The notes under the pieces are model-generated. The model was not told the DNA's origin and ran no database searches. It saw nothing but the letters and a program-made list of their open reading frames with translations. A stretch of DNA of 64,000 nt from Romboutsia sp. CE17. Its GTDB lineage: Bacteria; Bacillota; Clostridia; Peptostreptococcales; Peptostreptococcaceae. Below are positions 5,049 to 35,934 of this stretch, piece after piece (position 1 is the stretch's first letter; every line of letters starts with the position of its first letter). The stretch covers positions 992,001 through 1,056,000 of the forward strand of contig NZ_CP051144.1 in assembly GCF_012317385.1 (NCBI RefSeq), read 5' to 3'. The position numbers and the translations under genes are program-made.

Positions 5049-5060
5049 GATGGTGAAATT

Positions 5061-6065
5061 ATGACTATAATAGTTGCCTTATTAGTATTTAGTATAATAG
5101 TATTTATACATGAATTAGGGCATTTTACTTTTGCTAAAATGAATGGTGTAAAAGTACATGAATTTTCAATAGGTATGGGACCTAAAATATATAGCATAAA
5201 AAAAGATACTGAATACTCAATAAGATTATTACCCTTAGGTGGATTTGTAAGTATGGAAGGAGAAGATGAGGAGTCAAGTGACCCTAGATCTTTTGGAGCA
5301 AAAAGCATACTTCAAAGAGCAAGTATAATATTTGCTGGACCATTTTTTAATATAATATTTACAATAATTTTATTTATACCAATATTTATATTTATAGGTA
5401 GTCAAACTACAACATTAGGTGGGGTAACAGAAAATGGCCCTGCATATAGTGCAGGTGTAAAAGTAGGAGATACTATAGAGGCTATAGATGGTAAAAAAGT
5501 AAATAGCTGGCAAGATGTAATTCAAAGCTTGAACGAATCTGATGGAAGTGATGTTAAGCTTTCTATAGATAGAAATGGTCAGAATAAAGAAATAAGTGTA
5601 ACTCCTAAAAAAGGTGAAGATGGTAGATATGTAATAGGAATAGAAACTAAAGTAGAAAGAAATATATTAACTTCTATTAAAAATGCATTTACCACGACTT
5701 ATGATATGACAGTACAAATGATAACATTTGTTGGCCAATTATTTACAGGAACTGTTCCAGGTGGAGTTGGTAATTCTGTATCAGGTCCTCTAGGAGTTAT
5801 AAGTATAGTTTCAGAAGCGGCTAAAATGGGTATAGTTAATATAATGTATATAGCTGCTGTACTAAGTTTAAACTTAGGTATAATAAATTTAGTACCATTC
5901 CCAGCGTTAGATGGTGGTAGATTATTTATGTTAGCTATAGAGGCAATAAGAGGTGGTAAAAAACTTGATCCAAATAAAGAAGCTATGATTAATATGGTAG
6001 GTCTTGGAGCCTTAATGATATTCATGGTATTTATAACTTATAAGGATATATTAAGATTATTTTAA
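5061..6065 (+). CDS. rseP: Site-2 membrane zinc metalloprotease RseP/RasP (M50)
   Basis: Intramembrane protease that cleaves anti-sigma factors and signal-peptide remnants within the membrane. The zinc motif HELGH is at residues 17-21 in the first transmembrane helix. A PDZ domain lies around residues 100-185 (GGVTENGPAYSAGVKVGDTIEAIDG). The second catalytic motif NLVPFPALDGG is near residue 280 in a late helix. Length 334 aa is typical. It lies 12 bp after dxr with an AGGATGGTGA ribosome site, the usual dxr-rseP-ispG order. It is a plausible processor of the sigma/anti-sigma pair at 29461-30811, though that link is inference. Confidence 0.93.
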   Translation: MTIIVALLVFSIIVFIHELGHFTFAKMNGVKVHEFSIGMGPKIYSIKKDTEYSIRLLPLGGFVSMEGEDEESSDPRSFGAKSILQRASIIFAGPFFNIIFTIILFIPIFIFIGSQTTTLGGVTENGPAYSAGVKVGDTIEAIDGKKVNSWQDVIQSLNESDGSDVKLSIDRNGQNKEISVTPKKGEDGRYVIGIETKVERNILTSIKNAFTTTYDMTVQMITFVGQLFTGTVPGGVGNSVSGPLGVISIVSEAAKMGIVNIMYIAAVLSLNLGIINLVPFPALDGGRLFMLAIEAIRGGKKLDPNKEAMINMVGLGALMIFMVFITYKDILRLF

Positions 6066-26879: not shown

Positions 26880-27665
26880 ATGAATAACTGTGATAAAATA
26901 ATTGAAATTAAAAATTTAAGCAAACGTTATGGAGAAAAAGAAGTACTAAAAAATATTAGTTTAGATGTAAGCAAAGGAAATATAATTGGATATATAGGTC
27001 CAAATGGAGCTGGTAAAAGTACGACAATAAAAATAATACTAGGTCTTATTAGTGAATATGATGGAAAAGTAAAAATATTTGGTAGAGATATTAAGGAAGA
27101 GAATTTTGAATATAAAAACAAAATTGGGTATGTACCAGAAGTTGTTAAAGTATATGAAAGTTTAACTGCTAAAGAATATTTAACTTTTATTGGACAGTTA
27201 TATGGAATAGAATATGAAAAGTGTGACAATAAAGCAAGAAGGCTTATGAAAGTATTAGGTATTGAAGATGCTTATGAAAGTAGAATATCATCTTATTCAA
27301 AAGGAATGAAGCAAAAAGTTGCTATAATTTCTTCTGTACTTCATAATCCAGACATACTTTTTTTAGATGAGCCACTTAGTGGATTAGATGCTAACAGTGT
27401 TCTTTTAATAAAAGAAATTATAAATAGGTTAAAAGAAGATGGGAAAACTATTTTCTATTCATCTCATATAATGGAAGTTGTAGAAAAAATAAGTGATAGA
27501 ATAATAGTATTAAATGGTGGAAATATTGTAGCAGATGGAAATTTTGATGAAATTAGAAATTCGAGTTTTGATGGTTCTTTAGAAGAAATATTTAATGAGC
27601 TTACTGGATTTGATGAACATAATGATTTATCTAATGAGTTTGTAAATATTTTAAATGAGGTGTAA
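26880..27665 (+). CDS. ABC exporter ATP-binding protein
   Basis: ATPase of the ABC-2/CcmA-type export family. Walker A is GPNGAGKST (about 40-48), signature SSYSKGMKQK, Walker B DILFLDEPLSGLD, and the switch His in YSSHIMEVVEK. Length 261 aa, cytosolic. It is 3 bp from the next membrane gene, its obvious partner. The substrate is unknown. A GAGGG ribosome site sits between proC and its ATG. Confidence 0.88.
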   Translation: MNNCDKIIEIKNLSKRYGEKEVLKNISLDVSKGNIIGYIGPNGAGKSTTIKIILGLISEYDGKVKIFGRDIKEENFEYKNKIGYVPEVVKVYESLTAKEYLTFIGQLYGIEYEKCDNKARRLMKVLGIEDAYESRISSYSKGMKQKVAIISSVLHNPDILFLDEPLSGLDANSVLLIKEIINRLKEDGKTIFYSSHIMEVVEKISDRIIVLNGGNIVADGNFDEIRNSSFDGSLEEIFNELTGFDEHNDLSNEFVNILNEV

Positions 27666-27668
27666 CAT

Positions 27669-29315
27669 ATGAAAAACTATTTTGCACTTAAGGGTCTTGA
27701 TTTATTTAAGAAGATATATACTAGATATGGGGTAGACTATGATGTAATGAGATTAATAATTCAGGTTAAATTAACCTTAGATTCTAGAAGAATGTCAAAT
27801 AATAATAGTAATATGTATGAAGAAATAAAAGAGAAAAATTATTTCTTTACGTCATTAATAGTATATGCAATTTTAGGTGTTATGTCTGTTCCCTTATTGT
27901 TTATGAATATGGATATTAGATTAAAAATGACTATGAATTTCTCTTGCTTTATGATACTTCTATTAACTGCATTAATATCTGATTTTTCTAGTGTAATACT
28001 AGATATAGATGATAAAGATATAATTGGAATTAGAGGAGTGGATTCTAAAACTTTAAATGCTGCAAAAGCTACACATATATTTTTATATATATTTGCTTTA
28101 AGTTTAGCGTTATCTGCATTTAGTATGATTGCATTTTTAAGATTTGGAATAAAGTATTTTTTATTGTATATATTAAGTATAATTTTAATAGATATATTAA
28201 TGATAATGATAACCTCTATTATATATTTAGTAATTTTAAAGTTATTTAAAGGTGAAAAACTAAAAGATATATTAAATACTTTTCAAATAGCTTTTTTATT
28301 ACTATTTACGATAGGTTTTCAATTTATAATAAGAGGATTTGATTATATGAATATAGACTTTACATATACTTCATCATGGTGGAATATTCTTTTTATACCC
28401 ATGTGGTTTGCGTCTAATTTTAAATTAATTCAAGGAAGTGGTTACGATATCGTAGGAATTATATTAAGCATAATGTCTGTATCAGTACCTATAATTTCTG
28501 TGATAATATATGGAAAGTTTTCGTTAGTTTTTGAAAAGAATCTTCAAAAATTAAATGATAATACTTATAAAAATAAGTCTAAAAAAGAAAATCTTACTTT
28601 TAAGATAAGCAAACTTATTTGCAAAGAAAAAGAAGAAAGAGCTATATTTAATTTTACTTATAATATTTTATCTAAAGATAGAGATTTTAAGACAAAAGTA
28701 TATCCTTCTTTAGCATTAGGAACATTTATGCCAATAATAATGTTAATTAGTGCTTATGATAATAGTGGATTAGGAAATTATATGAATGAAATAAAAGATA
28801 GTTATATGTTTCTTAGTGCATATTTTATAGTTGTAATAATGCAAAATATTATAACTATGACTGGATACTCAAATGAATATGAAGGGGCATGGGTATATAA
28901 TGTTTTGCCTATTAAAAATAAAAGTAATATATATACTGGAACATTTAAAAGTAGCATATATAAACTAGGCATACCTTCTTTTATAATATTATCTATTATT
29001 TTTATAGGCATATTTGAAATAAAAGTAGTCAAGCATTTATTAATAATATTTTTATCTGAAATATTTGTATCAATGCTTACTTTTAAATTTAATGAAAAGA
29101 TTTTACCATTTTCTAAACCTTATAATATAGGAGATTCTTCTAAAAATATTTTTGTAGTTTTTAGATGTATATTTATAACTGGGATATTATTACTAATTCA
29201 TTTTGGAATTATATTAATGAATAATAATATGCTAATATATATTTACTTATTAGCTTTAATAATTATAGTGCGAATGTCATGGAAAGTTGTTTTTAAGATA
29301 AATAATAAGAATTAA
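27669..29315 (+). CDS. ABC exporter membrane protein, unclassified
   Basis: 548-aa polytopic protein with around twelve hydrophobic segments in two blocks (about 60-300 and 340-545) separated by a charged loop (about 300-325, KNKSKKENLTF). I recognise no named family; pairing with the upstream ATPase (3-bp spacing, GAGGTGT ribosome site at the end of that gene) makes it the permease half of an exporter. FNFTYNILSKDRDFKTKVYPSLALG and GYSNEYEGAWVYNVLPI are its most distinctive segments. A hairpin terminator follows. Confidence 0.7.
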   Translation: MKNYFALKGLDLFKKIYTRYGVDYDVMRLIIQVKLTLDSRRMSNNNSNMYEEIKEKNYFFTSLIVYAILGVMSVPLLFMNMDIRLKMTMNFSCFMILLLTALISDFSSVILDIDDKDIIGIRGVDSKTLNAAKATHIFLYIFALSLALSAFSMIAFLRFGIKYFLLYILSIILIDILMIMITSIIYLVILKLFKGEKLKDILNTFQIAFLLLFTIGFQFIIRGFDYMNIDFTYTSSWWNILFIPMWFASNFKLIQGSGYDIVGIILSIMSVSVPIISVIIYGKFSLVFEKNLQKLNDNTYKNKSKKENLTFKISKLICKEKEERAIFNFTYNILSKDRDFKTKVYPSLALGTFMPIIMLISAYDNSGLGNYMNEIKDSYMFLSAYFIVVIMQNIITMTGYSNEYEGAWVYNVLPIKNKSNIYTGTFKSSIYKLGIPSFIILSIIFIGIFEIKVVKHLLIIFLSEIFVSMLTFKFNEKILPFSKPYNIGDSSKNIFVVFRCIFITGILLLIHFGIILMNNNMLIYIYLLALIIIVRMSWKVVFKINNKN

Positions 29316-29329
29316 ATAAAAAATACTTA

Positions 29330-29387
29330 AAAATGAGTTATTTGTAGCCTATATTAATAATATATTACAAATAACTCATTTTTTTTA
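29330..29387. terminator. Terminator after the ABC pair
   Basis: 17-bp stem AAAATGAGTTATTTGTA (29330-29346) with its complement (29366-29382), followed by T to 29386. The T tract runs directly into the candidate ECF promoter of the next operon. Confidence 0.88.
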
Positions 29388-29414
29388 AAACCTTTTCTTA
29401 TATATTAGAGTCTA
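29386..29414 (+). promoter_or_regulatory. Candidate ECF-sigma promoter of the sigma/anti-sigma/PBP operon
   Basis: TAAAAC followed by CTTTT (29386-29396), 17 bp after the hexamer, then AGTCTA (29409-29414). This resembles the TGAAACcttt / CGTCTA elements read by Bacillus cell-envelope ECF factors (SigM/SigX/SigV type), with one mismatch in each element. It lies 46 bp before the likely start codon. I infer autoregulation; a sigma-A-like TATAAT (29430-29435) is also present but has no good -35. Confidence 0.4.
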
Positions 29415-29460
29415 ACTATTGTATAGTAATATAATATAAAATGTTATGGAAGGAGATATA

Positions 29461-29988
29461 ATGGAAGAAATTGTCTTAGTAAAAAGAGCAATCAAAGGTG
29501 ATAGGCAAGCCTTTGAAAGTCTTATAGACATATACTCTGATAGGTTATACAGAGAAGCTTATTTAAGGTGTAAACATGAAGATGATGCAAAGGAAATTAT
29601 ACAAGAAACAGTGTATAAAGCATATAGAAACATAGGTACCTTAAAAGAGGCGAAATATTTTAAAACTTGGATAAGTAGAATACTTATTAATGTTTCTAAT
29701 GACTATTTAAGTAAAATGGGAATGATTGACTTACAACATGATGAAAGTGCTTATGCAAAAAAAGTAATTGTTGAAGACAAAATAGAAATGAAAATAGATT
29801 TATATAATGCAATTGATGAACTAGAAGATAAATATAAAGATGTTATTATATTAAGATATATAGAAGATTTAAAAATAGAAGAAGTATCAAAAATACTTGA
29901 TCGTCCTATTAATACGATAAAGACCCACCTAAGAAAAGCAATTTCGGATATGAAAAATCTATTAAAGGAGGGGTATGGAAATGAGTAA
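29461..29988 (+). CDS. ECF-type RNA polymerase sigma factor
   Basis: Alternative sigma factor of the extracytoplasmic-function class. Region 2 spans about residues 5-75 (AIKGDRQAFESLIDIYSDRLYREAYLRCKHEDDAKEIIQETVYKAYRNI) and region 4 about 115-170 (AIDELEDKYKDVIILRYIEDLKIEEVSKILDRPINTIKTHLRKAISDMK, a helix-turn-helix). ATG 29461 (175 aa) is chosen because AAGGAGAT ends 5 nt before it; the ATG at 29446 lies upstream of that site. Its last codons overlap the start of the next gene by 8 bp (ATGAGTAA), implying coupled synthesis with its anti-sigma factor. Confidence 0.92.
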   Translation: MEEIVLVKRAIKGDRQAFESLIDIYSDRLYREAYLRCKHEDDAKEIIQETVYKAYRNIGTLKEAKYFKTWISRILINVSNDYLSKMGMIDLQHDESAYAKKVIVEDKIEMKIDLYNAIDELEDKYKDVIILRYIEDLKIEEVSKILDRPINTIKTHLRKAISDMKNLLKEGYGNE

Positions 29989-30811
29989 AAAAATAGAACG
30001 TCAAAATATAAATGATACCTTAGATATTGAATTAGAAGATATAAGTTTAGAAGAATTTGATTTATCAATGGATAAATTTTATATAGATGAAGAAAAAATA
30101 AATTCTATAAAAGCCCCAAAAGATATGAAGCTTTGGGTTAAAGATGCTATAGATAAAGCCGAATATGATGTAAAGAAAAGTAAAAGAAAAAAACAAATAA
30201 TAGCAAGTGTAGCAAGTATTACAGTGATATTTTCTATAGGAGTTTATAATCCAGTTTTAGCTCATAGAATCTCTTTTTTAGAAAATGTACTACAGAATAT
30301 AAATGATACTTTAAAAATAGATGAAATATCTTATAGATTAGGTATAGATAAAATACTACCAAAAGTTACTATAAATAAGGAAAATAAAGTTAAATATATA
30401 AAACCACCAAAATATAAAATAAACAAAAATGAAATTAATAAAGATGATATAAGCTTTTTAGAGAGTAGTGACTTTGAAAATTCAGAAGGCCCTAAAAGTG
30501 AATATTCATCAGTACAATTTATACATAAGATGTCAAATAGCATAATTAATCCTATTGATGGAAGAAAATATGGTAATATAGAAATTAGTCCTAAAACTAT
30601 AGATTTAGCTATAAAAGGATTAAAGTATATAAACAATGAAGATATTCAAAACTACTTGAATTTTGAGCTAGAAAAATGGAAAAATGGAGATTTTAATAAT
30701 GCAGTAGAAGTACATAATTATGTATGGGAATTATTAGATGGACAAGTAGGTAAAGCTATATCAATAAATGAGTCAAGTGTAGAAAATGTATTAAAAAAAC
30801 ATTTTAAATAA
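29981..30811 (+). CDS. Membrane-bound anti-sigma factor with DUF6241-like extracellular domain
   Basis: Overlaps the sigma gene by 8 bp, the usual place for an anti-sigma factor. Residues 1-68 are acidic and cytosolic (ELEDISLEEFDL, then KAPKDMKLWVKDAIDKAEYDVKKSKRKKQ). One transmembrane helix follows at about 70-90, then an outside region with a linker and a C-terminal module (about 185-276) containing NPIDGRKYGNIEISPKTIDLAIKG and WKNGDFNNAVEVHNYVWELLDGQVGKA. From memory I match this module to DUF6241; this should be confirmed. ATG 29981 has a GGAGGGG site 7 nt upstream. It probably binds the sigma factor until an envelope signal releases it. Confidence 0.7.
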   Translation: MSKKIERQNINDTLDIELEDISLEEFDLSMDKFYIDEEKINSIKAPKDMKLWVKDAIDKAEYDVKKSKRKKQIIASVASITVIFSIGVYNPVLAHRISFLENVLQNINDTLKIDEISYRLGIDKILPKVTINKENKVKYIKPPKYKINKNEINKDDISFLESSDFENSEGPKSEYSSVQFIHKMSNSIINPIDGRKYGNIEISPKTIDLAIKGLKYINNEDIQNYLNFELEKWKNGDFNNAVEVHNYVWELLDGQVGKAISINESSVENVLKKHFK

Positions 30812-30828
30812 TTTTAAGGGGAGAATAT

Positions 30829-32838
30829 ATGAATATAAAAAAAATAATATTATTAACATTAACTATTATTATGAGTATGTTTGTTTTGATAGGATGTAAT
30901 AAAGAAAATGAATTACAAACAACAATAAATAAGTATACTGATTTGTTAAATGAAAATAATTATGATGAGATATATGAAAGCTTATCAAAAAAGTCTAAGG
31001 AATATATAGATAGTGAATATGATGGAAAAGATGGTTTTATAAATAAATATTCTGCTATATACTCAGCTATGGGAGTAAATAATGTAAAAATAGAAATAAA
31101 AGATTTAAAAAATGAATCTTCAATACCAGTAAATATGTCAATGAATACAATTGCAGGAGATTTAAAGTTTGAAGATTTAAATATAGAATTAGTTAAAGAA
31201 GATAAAAATTATAAGATTCTTTGGAATGAAAGTATGATAATTCCAGGTATGATACAAGGAGATAAAGTTAGAGTTAAAATTACAAATGGTAATAGAGGAC
31301 GCATTTTAGATAGAGATGGAAACTTATTAGCATATAATGGAGATGTAAATAGCATCAATATAGATCAGAGAATTTTTGATGAACATAAAGATGAAAATAT
31401 TATCAAATTGGCATCTATTTTGGATATAAGTGAAGAATATATAAAGGATAAATTAGATAAAAATACTAATAAAGAACAATTAGTTTTTATAGTTAAACTT
31501 TCAAAATATGAGGATGAGAAAATATCAGAGTTAAATGAAGTACCAGGAGTAATAGTTCAAAGAGTAATATCGAGGGTTTATGCAAATGGTGAAGCTTTTG
31601 GTAGTTTATTAGGTTATATAGGTAGTATAACAGCTGAAGAATTAGAGAAAAATCCAGGAAAAGGATATACATCAACAAGTCAAATTGGCAAAAATGGATT
31701 AGAGCAAGTTTATGAAGAAAGGTTAAGATCAAAAGATGGTGTACATATATATATAGATAGAAATGGAGAGCAAATAACAGTATACAAGACTGAGGCTAGC
31801 GATGGAGAAGATATACAATTAGCAATAGACTCAAAACTTCAAGAAAAAATTTATAAAGAGATGGATAAACAAAAAGGAGCTTCTATTGCAATGGATTCTA
31901 ATACGGGAGAAGTACTAGCTATGGTAAGTTCACCTTCATATGATTCAAATACTCTTGTTACTTATAAAACTAAAACCATAGCAAAAGAATGGGAAGAAAG
32001 TAATAAGGCAGAATTTGATAATAGAGCTAATAACTCATATTCTCCTGGTTCTACAATGAAGCTTATAACAGCTGCTATAGGACTTGAGAATAAGGTTATA
32101 AACCCTAATGAAAAAATGGATATACAAGGCTTAAGTTGGCAAAATGGATCTTCTTGGGGAGATTATGCAGTAAGTCGTGTAAAAGATGCAAAAAAAGTAG
32201 GTTTATATGAAGCTGTAAAATACTCAGATAATATATACTTTGCAGATAAAGCAATCAAAATAGGAAGTGAGAGATTTATAGAGGGAAGTAAAAAATTTGG
32301 AATAGGAGAAGATATAAAATTTGAATATCCTATGGCAAAATCTCAAATTTCTAATAATGGAGAATTAAATGATGAGATACTCTTAGCTGATACTGGCTAT
32401 GGACAGGGGCAAGTTCTCACTACACCACTTAATATTACTATGGCATATAGTGCTTTAGCAAATGAAGGCAATATAATGCAGCCTAGATTAGTGATAAGTG
32501 AAAATACTGAAGCTAAGATATATAAAGAAGCTATTTCTAAAGAGTATATAAGTGAGTTAAAGAAAGATTTTATTGGTGTAATTAATGACTCTGATGGAAG
32601 TGGATATTTAGCAAAGATAGATGGTGTAAATCTTGCAGGAAAAACAGGTACAGCAGAAATTAAATCGAGTAAAGATGATGAAAATGGAAATGAGAATAGC
32701 TGGTTTGTTGCTGTAGATTTAGATAATTCTAAGGTATCAATATCTATGGTTATGGAAGATATGAAAGATAAATCTACATCTAAGTATTTAGTACCAAAAG
32801 TTAAAAATATTTTAGAAAATTATATAAAAAAACAATAA
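30829..32838 (+). CDS. Class B penicillin-binding protein with MecA-type N-terminal domain (lipoprotein)
   Basis: Peptidoglycan transpeptidase of the PBP2a/PbpC type, 669 aa (S. aureus PBP2a has 668). A lipobox IGC at Cys 23 anchors it outside the membrane. Residues 28-140 match the NTF2-like MecA_N domain, 150-300 the PBP dimerisation domain (NRGRILDRDGNLLAYNGD), and about 330-665 the transpeptidase. Active-site motifs are complete: S408-T-M-K411, S466-D-N468 and K605-T-G607. It starts 17 bp after the anti-sigma gene with AAGGGGAG, so it is third in that operon. MecA-type enzymes are often poorly inhibited by beta-lactams; for this one that is inference. Confidence 0.9.
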   Translation: MNIKKIILLTLTIIMSMFVLIGCNKENELQTTINKYTDLLNENNYDEIYESLSKKSKEYIDSEYDGKDGFINKYSAIYSAMGVNNVKIEIKDLKNESSIPVNMSMNTIAGDLKFEDLNIELVKEDKNYKILWNESMIIPGMIQGDKVRVKITNGNRGRILDRDGNLLAYNGDVNSINIDQRIFDEHKDENIIKLASILDISEEYIKDKLDKNTNKEQLVFIVKLSKYEDEKISELNEVPGVIVQRVISRVYANGEAFGSLLGYIGSITAEELEKNPGKGYTSTSQIGKNGLEQVYEERLRSKDGVHIYIDRNGEQITVYKTEASDGEDIQLAIDSKLQEKIYKEMDKQKGASIAMDSNTGEVLAMVSSPSYDSNTLVTYKTKTIAKEWEESNKAEFDNRANNSYSPGSTMKLITAAIGLENKVINPNEKMDIQGLSWQNGSSWGDYAVSRVKDAKKVGLYEAVKYSDNIYFADKAIKIGSERFIEGSKKFGIGEDIKFEYPMAKSQISNNGELNDEILLADTGYGQGQVLTTPLNITMAYSALANEGNIMQPRLVISENTEAKIYKEAISKEYISELKKDFIGVINDSDGSGYLAKIDGVNLAGKTGTAEIKSSKDDENGNENSWFVAVDLDNSKVSISMVMEDMKDKSTSKYLVPKVKNILENYIKKQ

Positions 32839-32869
32839 TTAAATATATTATTTAATATATTTAATAAAT

Positions 32870-32905
32870 AAAAAGGATTATGAAAGTTTTTCATAATCCT
32901 TTTTA
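32870..32905. terminator. Terminator of the sigma/anti-sigma/PBP operon
   Basis: 16-bp stem AAAAAGGATTATGAAA (32870-32885) with TTTCATAATCCTTTTT (32889-32904), 3-nt loop. Confidence 0.92.
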
Positions 32906-32975
32906 TTTATTTTGTATACTTGAGTGAATATAGAAGAAAATATATTTAAAATAAGATTTATCAAGGAGAAATGCT

Positions 32976-33743
32976 ATGAAAAAATTACAAAAGCCATTAT
33001 TATTTATTTTATTAATTATATTTTTATATACTTCTAGTTCATATTCTATGGAAAGAAAAGAAGATATTTGTGTTAATAAATTATTTGTAGTTGAATCTAA
33101 AATTGAAAATAAAGAAAATGAGTTCTTCAAGTATAATATAAAATATCCCTTTATGAATTTTAAAGAAGAGTACGCAAAGAAAAACAAAAAAAATGTAAAA
33201 ATCATAGATGAAATAAATAAAGATATATATGAGTACATAATGAGTTTTAAAGAGAATATAAGTAAGCAATCTGAAAAATATAAAGAAGATTACACTAATA
33301 TATATGCTAAAGAGAAAGAAAAATATGTAAAGTATCAATATGAAGCTGATTCAGACTATCAAGTTACTTATAATAAAAATAATATTATAAGCATTCCTAT
33401 AACAACATATGAGTTTACTGGAGGGGCACATGGAATGACATATTTAAAGTCTTTTAATTATAATTTAAATAATGGATCAAAACTTATGTTAAAAGACTTA
33501 TTTAAAGAAGACATAGATTACGAAAAAATAATAAATAATTTTATTAAATCAGAAATATCTAAAAATAAACTACTATATTTTACGGGGAAAGATGGTTTTA
33601 AAGGAATAAAAAGAGATCAAGATTTTTATTTAGAAGATGATGGTATTGTAGTATATTTTCAATTATATGATATAGCTCCATACTATGTTGGAATTCCAAA
33701 GTTTAAATTGACATATAATCAATTTGGAGATTATTTAAAATAA
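32976..33743 (+). CDS. Secreted DUF4163/DUF3298 protein (RsiV/PdaC-like ectodomain)
   Basis: A signal peptide occupies about residues 1-24, with no lipobox and no further membrane segment. The mature protein has an N-terminal DUF4163-like part (FFKYNIKYPFMNF, then a charged helix) and a C-terminal DUF3298 part with the diagnostic ITTYEFTGGAHGMTYLKSFNYNLNNGSKLMLKDLF and DIAPYYVGIPKF. The same domains form the ectodomain of the anti-sigma factor RsiV, which binds lysozyme, and the N-terminus of PdaC. Here it stands alone without anti-sigma helix or deacetylase. It directly follows the ECF-PBP operon but behind a terminator. Confidence 0.8.
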   Translation: MKKLQKPLLFILLIIFLYTSSSYSMERKEDICVNKLFVVESKIENKENEFFKYNIKYPFMNFKEEYAKKNKKNVKIIDEINKDIYEYIMSFKENISKQSEKYKEDYTNIYAKEKEKYVKYQYEADSDYQVTYNKNNIISIPITTYEFTGGAHGMTYLKSFNYNLNNGSKLMLKDLFKEDIDYEKIINNFIKSEISKNKLLYFTGKDGFKGIKRDQDFYLEDDGIVVYFQLYDIAPYYVGIPKFKLTYNQFGDYLK

Positions 33744-33747
33744 AGAT

Positions 33748-33787
33748 AAAAAAGATAGGTAATTTTTAATTACACTATCTTTTTTTA
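33748..33787. terminator. Bidirectional terminator between convergent genes
   Basis: AAAAAAGATAG (33748-33758) pairs with CTATCTTTTTT (33775-33785), with an inner GTAA/TTAC helix after one bulged base; seven T follow. Confidence 0.85.
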
Positions 33788-33793
33788 TCTTTA

Positions 33794-35050
33794 TTATTGA
33801 ACTGTATTTATAGTATCTTCAGGATGGTCTTCTGAATTATTATTTTCAGTACTATTGTCATTATTAGACTCATAAGAAGATGTATTATCATCTTCTGTAG
33901 ATTGACTATTTTCATCTATGTTATTAGTATTATCTTCTACAATAGGTGTTTCTAAGTTTTGTTCTGTTTCATAATTAGATTCTGAGTTAGAAGAATCATT
34001 GTTATTAAATAATCCTGTAAACCAATTCCATATTTTAGTGAAGAAACCTTCAACCTCCTCACTTGATGGTAAATTTATAGCTTCCTTGTCAGTAGCATCT
34101 ATTTGAGCATTTTCCCCAAGTAAACTATCGTTCGTATTTTCTAGGATACCTAAATCTTTATTTCCTTCAAATATACCTGCTACCCAATCACCAATTCCAC
34201 TAAACCAATTTTTTACTGAATCAAAGAATCCAGGGTTTATTTCACCTAATGCAATTAAATTATCATTAACATTTTCCTTAACACTTTCTAAAGCATTTTT
34301 TATACTATTATAATCATATTCTTGTTGTGCTATTTTAGCCATTAAATCTTCTATTTGTTTTTGTTGCTCTGCTGTTAAAGTAACGTTATAGTTATTAGTA
34401 ACATTATTTATAGTTTCAGCTATTTGTATAGTATCACTGGTATTATTTTTTATTATCTCTGTTTTTATATCGTTGATTATACCAGTAGCTTTATCTTGAC
34501 CAGAATCACCACCAATATCATCTGCTAAGTCACCAGTTATTATTAGTTCTTCAGATGCAATTTCTTTTTTCTCTTCGTCTAAAGGTTCACCAGTAGCATC
34601 TTCAAAAGCTTTCATTATACCAGTCATCATTCCTGTACCTGAAACTGGAAATGGAGCAGCAGCAACTACATTAGCATCTTCAATTCCAACTGTAGACATT
34701 ATACTTGCAATCATTGAACTTGTAGCCCAAGTTATATTTGCAGTTTTAACATTTATACCGCTTCCAGGTTTAGTTGGTTCAACATAAGCACAAGAGAAAG
34801 TTTTTTTCCCTAGTTGCGCCTCTGTAGCAACTCCTTGTAAATATTTTCTTTCTTCTTGGTTATTTACTTCTACTATAACTACTTCATTCTCATCTACGCC
34901 AAAATACTTTAGCATAGTTGCACGTTGTTCTTTACTTAAGTTTGCACCTAATGTAACAACTCTTGAGCCATCAGCAAAAGCAAAGTTAATGCTTCCTAAA
35001 ATTATAGCACCGCATAAGATTAATGAAGTTATTTTCTTTTTTAGTTTCAT
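33794..35050 (-). CDS. Secreted DUF1002-family protein with Asn/Ser/Glu-rich tail
   Basis: A signal peptide of about 27 residues (KKKITSLILCGAIILGSINFAFA) precedes a DUF1002 domain (about 28-260: VVTLGANLSKEQRATMLKYFGV, VVIVEVNNQEERKYL, TWATSSMIASIMSTVGI, VVAAAPFPVSGTGMMTGIMKAFE). Then follow two similar Trp-rich short segments (FFDSVKNWFSGIGDWVAGIF near 275, FFTKIWNWFTGLFN near 345) and a low-complexity acidic Asn/Ser tail of some 65 residues. The domain's function is unknown. ATG 35050 (418 aa) has AAAGGAG 7 nt upstream; a TTG at 35056 overlaps it. Confidence 0.8.
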   Translation of the reverse strand: MKLKKKITSLILCGAIILGSINFAFADGSRVVTLGANLSKEQRATMLKYFGVDENEVVIVEVNNQEERKYLQGVATEAQLGKKTFSCAYVEPTKPGSGINVKTANITWATSSMIASIMSTVGIEDANVVAAAPFPVSGTGMMTGIMKAFEDATGEPLDEEKKEIASEELIITGDLADDIGGDSGQDKATGIINDIKTEIIKNNTSDTIQIAETINNVTNNYNVTLTAEQQKQIEDLMAKIAQQEYDYNSIKNALESVKENVNDNLIALGEINPGFFDSVKNWFSGIGDWVAGIFEGNKDLGILENTNDSLLGENAQIDATDKEAINLPSSEEVEGFFTKIWNWFTGLFNNNDSSNSESNYETEQNLETPIVEDNTNNIDENSQSTEDDNTSSYESNNDNSTENNNSEDHPEDTINTVQ

Positions 35051-35124
35051 ACTCAATCTCCTTTAATTTGTCGTATAGATAATATATACGATTTGTTAAC
35101 AGTATTTATGTATTTCCTGTCTTT

Positions 35125-35153
35125 AATATACTATAAACTATTTTTTTATTCAA
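35125..35153 (-). promoter_or_regulatory. Likely promoter of the DUF1002 gene (minus strand)
   Basis: On the minus strand TTGAAT (35153-35148), 17-bp spacer, TATATT (35130-35125), leaving a leader of about 70 nt. Confidence 0.5.
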
Positions 35154-35292
35154 TGCGTTTACAATTTTGTAACTCTAATTACAAAAATATTAAGGAAATC
35201 TTAAGATAATTTACTCTATAGATTCTTATTTAAAAATACACATAAATAAATCTTATATAAAATGAAATATCATTATATATAAGCTAATTACA

Positions 35293-35934
35293 TTAACCCC
35301 CAAGAGTAACATCTTGTTCATTATACCAATTTAATGCATCATAAAAGTCTTTTGATTTAAAATCAGGCCAATAGTTATCTATTACATAAAAATCTGCGTA
35401 TACAGATTGAGCAGGTAAGAATCCACTAAGTCTTCTTCTACCACCCCATCTTATAATTAAATCTATTCTAGAAATATCCTTAGAGTGTAAGTAAGGTATA
35501 ATATGTTTTTTAGAAGTATCAGCTTCTTTTAATAAATTTAAATCCCATTCCCATCCATAGTGTATTAAAAAGTTTACTTTTATCCCACCTTTACCAAATT
35601 TTTGTCTTGTCGCAAATGGAAGTAATTCTTTTGGAAAAGCGCTTGATTCAGTATTACCAAGAACAAGTATTTCACAATCTTCCTTTGTAAGTAGCATAAC
35701 AGAGTCAATACATGCTTGTGTAAAGGCAAGTTTTTGTTCTGTAGGCCTTTTTGTATTATCTACGGTAAATCCATAGAAAGTTACTTCTTTTATATTTTCT
35801 TTCTGGCAAAGTTTAAATACATCTAATCCAGGATTAATTCCATGTTTATATCCCATATCTTTAGTCATATTATTAGATAAAGCCCAACGTCTATTACCGT
35901 CGGGTATGATTCCTATATGCTCTGGTACTCTCAT
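35293..35934 (-). CDS. Variant cis-prenyltransferase (UppS-family paralogue)
   Basis: 213-aa member of the undecaprenyl diphosphate synthase family, shorter than the housekeeping uppS (244 aa) in this window. The catalytic Asp is kept (IIPDGNRRWA, Asp 12) but MDGNG becomes PDGNR, FSTENWKRP becomes FTVDNTKRP, RTSGEQRLSNF becomes RWGGRRRLSGF and the late metal-binding Glu becomes Asp (YADFY). The two Arg and the Ser that hold isopentenyl diphosphate remain, so it may well be active with another chain length or product. AGGAGG lies 4 nt before the ATG. It is divergent from a 59-aa gene and a CrtI-like desaturase. Confidence 0.85.
   Translation of the reverse strand: MRVPEHIGIIPDGNRRWALSNNMTKDMGYKHGINPGLDVFKLCQKENIKEVTFYGFTVDNTKRPTEQKLAFTQACIDSVMLLTKEDCEILVLGNTESSAFPKELLPFATRQKFGKGGIKVNFLIHYGWEWDLNLLKEADTSKKHIIPYLHSKDISRIDLIIRWGGRRRLSGFLPAQSVYADFYVIDNYWPDFKSKDFYDALNWYNEQDVTLGG

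Follow-up and report, generated by a model that had tools for sequence, protein, structure and literature searches.

The DNA analysed here, referred to as the window, is a 64,000-nucleotide stretch of Romboutsia sp. CE17 (positions 992001-1056000 of a source genome that consists of one contig of 3.12 Mb, G000 in our sample numbering). It carries, on the forward strand, a gene for an extracytoplasmic function (ECF) sigma factor, a gene for its putative membrane anti-sigma factor and a gene for a MecA-type penicillin-binding protein (PBP). An earlier sequence-only reading of the same DNA had proposed that these genes form a dedicated circuit with a self-directed promoter, and the three open frames were found at the positions which that reading had given.

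Layout of the three-gene locus

The sigma gene spans 29461..29988 and encodes 175 amino acids (180 if translation begins at an alternative ATG at 29446), with Sigma70_r2 and Sigma70_r4, corresponding to regions 2 and 4, over their cut-offs. It is followed by the anti-sigma gene (29981..30811), whose 276-residue product is predicted to consist of a cytoplasmic N-terminus, one membrane span at residues ~73-92, a VLA site, a linker and a C-terminal DUF6241 domain. The starts of both genes were picked by ribosome-site spacing. With the anti-sigma start at 29981 the two frames overlap by the 8 bp noted previously, while the start at 29975, which gives a 278-residue protein, would make the overlap 14 bp. 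After a gap of 17 nt, also as noted previously, comes the gene for a 669-residue class B PBP of the MecA_N type (30829..32838), a lipoprotein by its lipobox and with STMK, SDN and KTG motifs intact.

Strong hairpins flank this group. Upstream, a hairpin with a T-run, a probable terminator (29329..29386, +; minimum free energy (MFE) -20.8 kcal/mol, z -7.55, 0/200 shuffles as good), separates the sigma promoter from an ABC-type ATPase gene (recognised by eye) and a membrane protein gene, and its T-run abuts the TT of that promoter; it was not among the 3 sites returned by a terminator consensus scan. Downstream of the PBP gene lies a terminator of 20 pairs with a T-rich tail (32864..32910, +; MFE -21.8, z -8.53). 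Since strong hairpins stand both before the promoter and after the PBP gene, the operon most likely comprises the predicted sigma, anti-sigma and PBP genes only.

The predicted sigma promoter in the family

The candidate promoter of the operon, TTAAAACCTTTT-N13-GTCTAA, lies at 29385..29415 (+), and the elements described earlier are present as written, with TAAAAC at 29386 and AGTCTA at 29409 at a spacing of 17. We followed it through a family sample of 71 genomes, in which the source genus is represented by one genome (G000). Orthologs of the sigma factor were present in 12 of the 71 (G000, G012, G013, G049, G050, G051, G053, G065, G066, G067, G068 and G070), being 72-76% identical in nine genomes and 56% in G051, with G068 left out of this measurement. 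The sequence TTAAAACnTTTT-N13-GTCTAA or a close variant was kept upstream of all 12 sigma orthologs, the variants being ATCTAA in G051 and one change in the T block in G066.

Exact copies of the motif were then counted in 297 genomes, with the reversed pattern as control. The 12 sigma-bearing genomes contained 24 exact sites versus 0 in the control; of the 24, 10 stood upstream of sigma genes, 3 upstream of PBP genes and 11 elsewhere. The other 59 family genomes contained 3 versus 2 and 226 genomes of the order's other families 9 versus 6. A position weight matrix (PWM) scored the window promoter at 27.4, this site being in the training set, and the next best site in the window at 11.7; its training set consisted of the 12 sigma sites alone, at positions chosen after the upstream regions of sigma and PBP genes had been viewed. 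The motif itself was likewise written down after both sets of regions had been viewed, and in the column table, which counts 16 sites, the [AG]AAC and [AG]TCTAA columns are constrained because the search expression fixed them. A chance origin of the promoter was rejected for exact sites on the family counts and the PWM, but not for looser ones. With one mismatch allowed, the window alone held 1 site versus 0.96 expected, by a pattern whose spacer was one base too long, so the case for the promoter rests on the relatives. In the source genome, spacers of N13-N15 gave 6 sites versus 6 in the control, from which only two N13 sites were kept, and two mismatches gave 10 versus 13, with only the two exact sites claimed. 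As conserved sequence in relatives, the proposal of an ECF-type promoter read by its own sigma factor and serving the PBP as well is borne out, and the sigma factor very probably activates its own operon, the PBP included.

The PBP gene directly follows the anti-sigma gene in six of the 12 sigma-bearing genomes (G000, G049, G050, G012, G013 and G053). For the condition named earlier as refuting the circuit, a PBP gene consistently unlinked from the sigma pair, the outcome is mixed: the PBP gene lies apart in five (G051, G065, G066, G067 and G068; in G065 the distance is ~1.5 Mb) and is missing in one, but most of the unlinked genes have the same promoter, as described below. Eleven genomes of two other genera encode a full-length MecA_N PBP and no such sigma pair; their PBPs are 36-48% identical in the four that were aligned. 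We scanned the regions upstream of 22 PBP genes, obtained from 31 MecA_N rows after removal of eight with open frames of 286-308 amino acids and one duplicate (G026 C282). Of the five unlinked PBP genes in sigma-bearing genomes, four are preceded by a separate copy of the promoter in the 300 nt before their start, with PWM scores of 29.7 (G065, G066 and G067) and 19.9 (G051, where the -35 element has one change and the T block is shifted by one). None of the 11 PBP genes from sigma-less genomes has the motif in the 300 nt scanned, for which at most 0.007 sites per 300 nt are expected; for G008 and G010 the start was taken far upstream, so that the stretch scanned is more distant, and the genome-wide table shows no site near either gene. 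Fisher's test of 4/5 versus 0/11 gives p = 0.0027, with G065-G067 belonging to one genus. Sigma control thus seems to persist after linkage is lost. The unlinked genes of the genus g23 (G065-G067) group with G000 among the linked genes in the PBP tree, and the unlinked G051 gene pairs with the linked g5, with supports of 0.97-1.0 in these groupings. Most simply, this points to an old operon from which the PBP gene departed on two occasions, with the sigma promoter retained or regained in each case.

Two of the three exact sites outside the sigma-bearing genomes belong to G047 and G048, members of the same genus as G049 and G050, and are scars of deleted operons. In G047 (L126) the promoter is followed by what was recognised by eye as the C-terminal tail of the PBP, as expected of a deletion from behind the promoter into the end of that gene. 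In G048 (L127) it is followed by the first part of a sigma gene, which continues into the gene found after the PBP gene in G049 and G050. The breakpoints differ, so the module was lost by two different deletions, each of which left the promoter in place. The third outside site (G058) lies inside an open frame.

Other exact sites in sigma-bearing genomes point to a few further candidate targets. At 818,833 in G000 an exact sigma promoter precedes the gene (G000:C1:818832-820652; L121:3833-5653) for a 581-residue membrane protein with a YcxB-like N-terminus and BNR repeats, which is in two pieces in some relatives. The motif stands before this gene in all four sigma-bearing genomes with a strong homolog (exact in G000, G051 and G012, one mismatch in G013), and the homolog in G030, which has no sigma factor, lacks a site (no score above 4.6 in the scanned loci); 14 of the 22 rows of this homolog search, with E above ~1e-8 and matching the BNR or YcxB part only, including those of G065-G068, were set aside. 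The motif also precedes a gene for a 271-residue putative lipoprotein without a Pfam match in G012 and G013 and, in G068, genes for a nuclease-domain putative lipoprotein divergent from sigma and for a DUF975 protein. In G070 an exact copy lies ~280 nt before a gene for an L,D-transpeptidase with choline-binding repeats (L136:4464-5972), which is no more than suggestive. The next listed start lies 355 nt beyond the site on G049 C54 and 107 nt beyond that on G051 C80, and the site on G051 C44 is probably a chance occurrence because it lies inside an open frame. No beta-lactamase gene was found among the motif-linked genes examined. A separate observation concerns G065, where a second ECF-type sigma gene (L138:4656-5213) has the near-identical promoter TTATAACTTTTT-N13-GTCTAA (PWM 24.0), and similar sites are listed for G066 and G067; related sigma factors may therefore overlap in promoter specificity.

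The PBP, the sigma factor and the anti-sigma factor

The PBP was examined against Pfam and NCBIfam models and solved structures. MecA_N, PBP_dimer and Transpeptidase all exceed their Pfam cut-offs, and the lipobox reads LIGC, so that the lipoprotein with MecA_N and intact active-site motifs recognised previously was seen again in Pfam and in the sequence. The likeness to PBP2a claimed at that time stood in architecture and length (669 amino acids versus 668 model positions) but not in the NCBIfam score, which at 397.2 bits against the MecA/PBP2a model NF000237 falls under the curated cut-off of 750. The best listed model was that of Enterococcus PBP4(5) (NF051842, 551.6 bits, cut-off 700), and none of the 21 listed NCBIfam models was matched over its cut-off. 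The closest solved chain is PDB 7bn9, 'Penicillin-binding protein 3' (447.7 bits), followed by chains of PBP5, PBP4, PBP2a, PBP 2 prime and MecA at ~338-364 bits. The window PBP has domain architecture, length and intact motifs in common with Enterococcus PBP4/PBP5, Staphylococcus PBP2a (the resistance protein of MRSA) and 7bn9, although it falls below the NCBIfam cut-offs of the Enterococcus and Staphylococcus proteins. Its affinity for beta-lactams is probably reduced. The staphylococcal gene mecA is known for its control by MecRI/BlaRI. Unlike mecA, the window gene shares an operon with an ECF sigma factor, and no BlaRI/MecRI gene was seen by eye among the open reading frames at 27000-35500, where no family search for BlaI/BlaR was made. 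A mobile cassette was considered and rejected, as the anti-sigma factor had no match in 72,556 plasmid records and the 20 listed plasmid matches of the PBP were at most 37.1% identical, with all 712 under 60%.

The sigma factor scores best with the NCBIfam model TIGR02954 (181.3 bits, cut-off 188.5), followed by SigV at 113.7 bits, also below its cut-off. By gene order and family, the single-span protein encoded by the overlapping gene probably holds this sigma factor in check. A single hydrophobic stretch agrees with the one span described earlier, and the DUF6241-like ectodomain suspected then was recovered by a Pfam hidden Markov model search (PF19754, E 5.2e-22, 78.3 bits, gathering cut-off 27), which gave no DUF3298 match at E 0.001. 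In an alignment of 14 anti-sigma factors most invariant columns fall in the C-terminal domain (I181, H182, N186, W233, G236, F238, N240, H245, N246, V248, W249, L252, G254, G257 and A259). Just after the span, all 11 operon-type proteins have [AVI]LA (ALA, VLA or ILA), while ALT, KLF and NIF occupy this place in the three paralogs. AXA is given as the commonest signal-peptidase site pattern (PMC8844934), and the DUF4179 region of RsiV is described as holding a signal-peptidase site and shielding it with amphipathic helices (PMC6066255). The signal-peptidase-like [AVI]LA pattern behind the span suggests RsiV-style proteolysis. A candidate for the second cut is a site-2 protease of the RseP/RasP type encoded at 5055..6062 of the window (+; G000:C1:997055-998062; TIGR00054 over cut-off), whose presence is ordinary, as such a protease was found in 14 of 14 genomes checked and is near universal.

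A two-row AlphaFold2 model of the anti-sigma factor was poor overall (predicted local distance difference test score 53.0); residues 141-260 were modelled as helical and better, most 10-residue blocks scoring ~68-89. Searches with the DUF6241 model by Foldseek (best E 2.0) and by VIA structure search (best Z 5.3, a flagellin-FliS complex) were unconvincing, and the anti-sigma alignment, searched against PDB sequences, gave two weak ribosomal matches (E 0.15 and 0.29). The source genome also encodes a paralogous pair of sigma factor and DUF6241 anti-sigma factor (G000:C1:785661-786362; anti-sigma 39% identical), which has neither a PBP gene nor the promoter motif, and pairs of the paralog type occur in Intestinibacter bartlettii and in G069.

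Beyond the PBP terminator, a gene at 32976-33743 (+) encodes 255 residues that begin like a signal peptide and include PdaC and DUF3298 domains. The protein resembles the RsiV ectodomain minus the anti-sigma part, with a score below the RsiV model cut-off, and a 52% identical homolog is encoded ~5 kb from the PBP gene in G068. The convergent gene that follows (33794-35056, -) encodes a 420-residue protein with DUF1002 (E 3e-75).

A probable envelope-stress module and its alternatives

We consider it likely that the three genes constitute an autoregulated envelope-stress module with the PBP as its output. At rest, the membrane anti-sigma factor would bind the ECF sigma factor. An extracellular signal, presumably wall stress, would act on the DUF6241 ectodomain and expose the [AVI]LA site just outside the span, upon which signal peptidase and then the RseP/RasP-type protease would destroy the anti-sigma factor in two steps, as is known for RsiV. 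The freed sigma factor would read TTAAAACnTTTT-N13-GTCTAA, as the conserved sequence indicates, and raise expression of its own operon, the PBP and a few envelope genes. The PBP would then serve as an additional cross-linking enzyme, probably of low affinity, for conditions in which the usual PBPs are blocked or the wall has been damaged.

Several observations weigh against this module. Specificity was lost when one mismatch was allowed, with 47 sites versus 24 in the control in sigma-bearing genomes and 90 versus 127 in the other family genomes. No more than two independent cases underlie the four promoter-bearing unlinked PBPs, G065-G067 being one genus, and the unlinked PBP gene of G068 has no motif, the best score in its locus (15.8) not being before the PBP gene. 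G051 is a doubtful member, as its sigma gene has the promoter while its anti-sigma factor matches the paralog type best. In G065 and G067 the next gene checked after the anti-sigma gene encodes SurE. The DUF4179 match of the anti-sigma factor, located at the span junction, has E 3.1e-5 and stays under the Pfam cut-off. Neither the sigma tree nor the anti-sigma tree agrees in full with the PBP tree, and because of this partial disagreement transfer is possible. Finally, G070 keeps the sigma pair and promoter with no MecA_N match in its genome, and in G053 the PBP gene is in two open frames (possibly a sequencing error), so that the sigma factor is not kept solely for the PBP.

The persistence of the sigma pair and promoter in these last two genomes, one with no PBP found and one with a broken PBP, also makes it more likely that the PBP is an output rather than a required sensor. 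That the PBP could instead be the sensor, or sensor and output together, with bound beta-lactam triggering anti-sigma cleavage in the manner of PbpP in the sigmaP/RsiP system of B. thuringiensis, has in its favour the adjacency of the PBP gene to the sigma pair, since pbpP likewise adjoins sigP-rsiP and PbpP is described as needed for RsiP cleavage (PMC8092216), and the loss of the module as a block in G047 and G048. The window PBP is itself under the sigma promoter; of PbpP one paper states that beta-lactams do not induce it, while the sigmaP regulon paper counts three PBPs and tests a pbpP promoter fusion. On balance, we regard the sensor role as improbable. An extended form of the idea, in which a single PBP would sense beta-lactams, thereby releasing sigma, and would also stand in for the blocked PBPs, making a self-contained inducible tolerance cassette read through a DUF6241 anti-sigma factor of unknown ligand, and in which sigma in G070, having lost the PBP, would have taken over an L,D-transpeptidase as another cross-linking route under penicillins, is a long shot.

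A circuit responding to lysozyme or antimicrobial peptides like sigmaV/RsiV, with the PBP as a repair enzyme and not a beta-lactam defence, seems rather unlikely. The order of the sigma models (TIGR02954, then SigV), the DUF4179-like region as in RsiV (below cut-off) and the PdaC/DUF3298 protein encoded just beyond the terminator, with its sub-threshold RsiV score, would all fit. However, the anti-sigma factor itself has DUF6241 and no DUF3298 match, the PdaC/DUF3298 gene is separated by a strong terminator and the PWM shows no site before it. The adjacency could also be accidental, with the sigma pair having other main targets and a constitutive PBP carried along, as the unlinked PBPs in five genomes, the absent one in another and the motif-less gene of G068 might indicate; but unlinked PBPs in two lineages have the same promoter, and the window PBP gene lies 17 nt from the anti-sigma gene with a terminator only behind it, which makes coincidence highly unlikely.

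The proposed autoregulated module with the PBP as output is most similar to sigmaP-RsiP-PbpP (ECF265), the nearest known system, to which it is likened by published descriptions. The sigmaP of B. thuringiensis is described there as activated by beta-lactams and driving PBPs and beta-lactamases (PMC8092216, PMC8844934, PMC8791391), and as needing PbpP, which is encoded beside sigmaP but in another operon (PMC8092216). Common to both, on those descriptions, are an ECF sigma factor with a one-span anti-sigma factor, one or more adjacent PBP genes and an AAC -35 element, as well as, for the window by prediction, an autoregulated operon and PBPs in the regulon. In the window, by contrast, the PBP gene occupies third place in the operon, DUF6241 is combined with a DUF4179-like junction in the anti-sigma factor (RsiP is described as without DUF4179 in PMC8844934), and the motif-linked genes examined include no beta-lactamase gene. 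With sigmaV-RsiV (PMC6066255) the system has in common the second-best sigma model (SigV, below cut-off) and possibly a DUF4179-like junction (also below cut-off) with a candidate signal-peptidase-type site, but it differs in having a DUF6241 rather than a DUF3298 ectodomain, so that the DUF3298/PdaC ectodomain characteristic of sigmaV/RsiV (ECF30) is not found in the anti-sigma factor, and in having a PBP rather than a lysozyme-resistance gene as output. In a literature collection with few subscription journals, a text search found no paper naming DUF6241, and a search of titles and abstract starts found no description of an operon of ECF sigma factor, anti-sigma factor and MecA-type PBP. For C. 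difficile, three ECF sigma factors are listed, with consensus sequences given as still unknown in 2020 (PMC7438776).

Judged from conserved sequence, the module appears to be a real and well-supported circuit of the sigmaP-RsiP-PbpP kind in a new form. If this is correct, the promoter, the regulator and the target of a resistance-type PBP in a Clostridia family would be named together, part of the regulon would be readable from sequence in relatives, and a role could be proposed for DUF6241 as the sensor domain of an anti-sigma factor. The system would offer a tractable case for asking by which protein, the PBP or the anti-sigma factor, beta-lactams are sensed in ECF circuits that have a PBP target.

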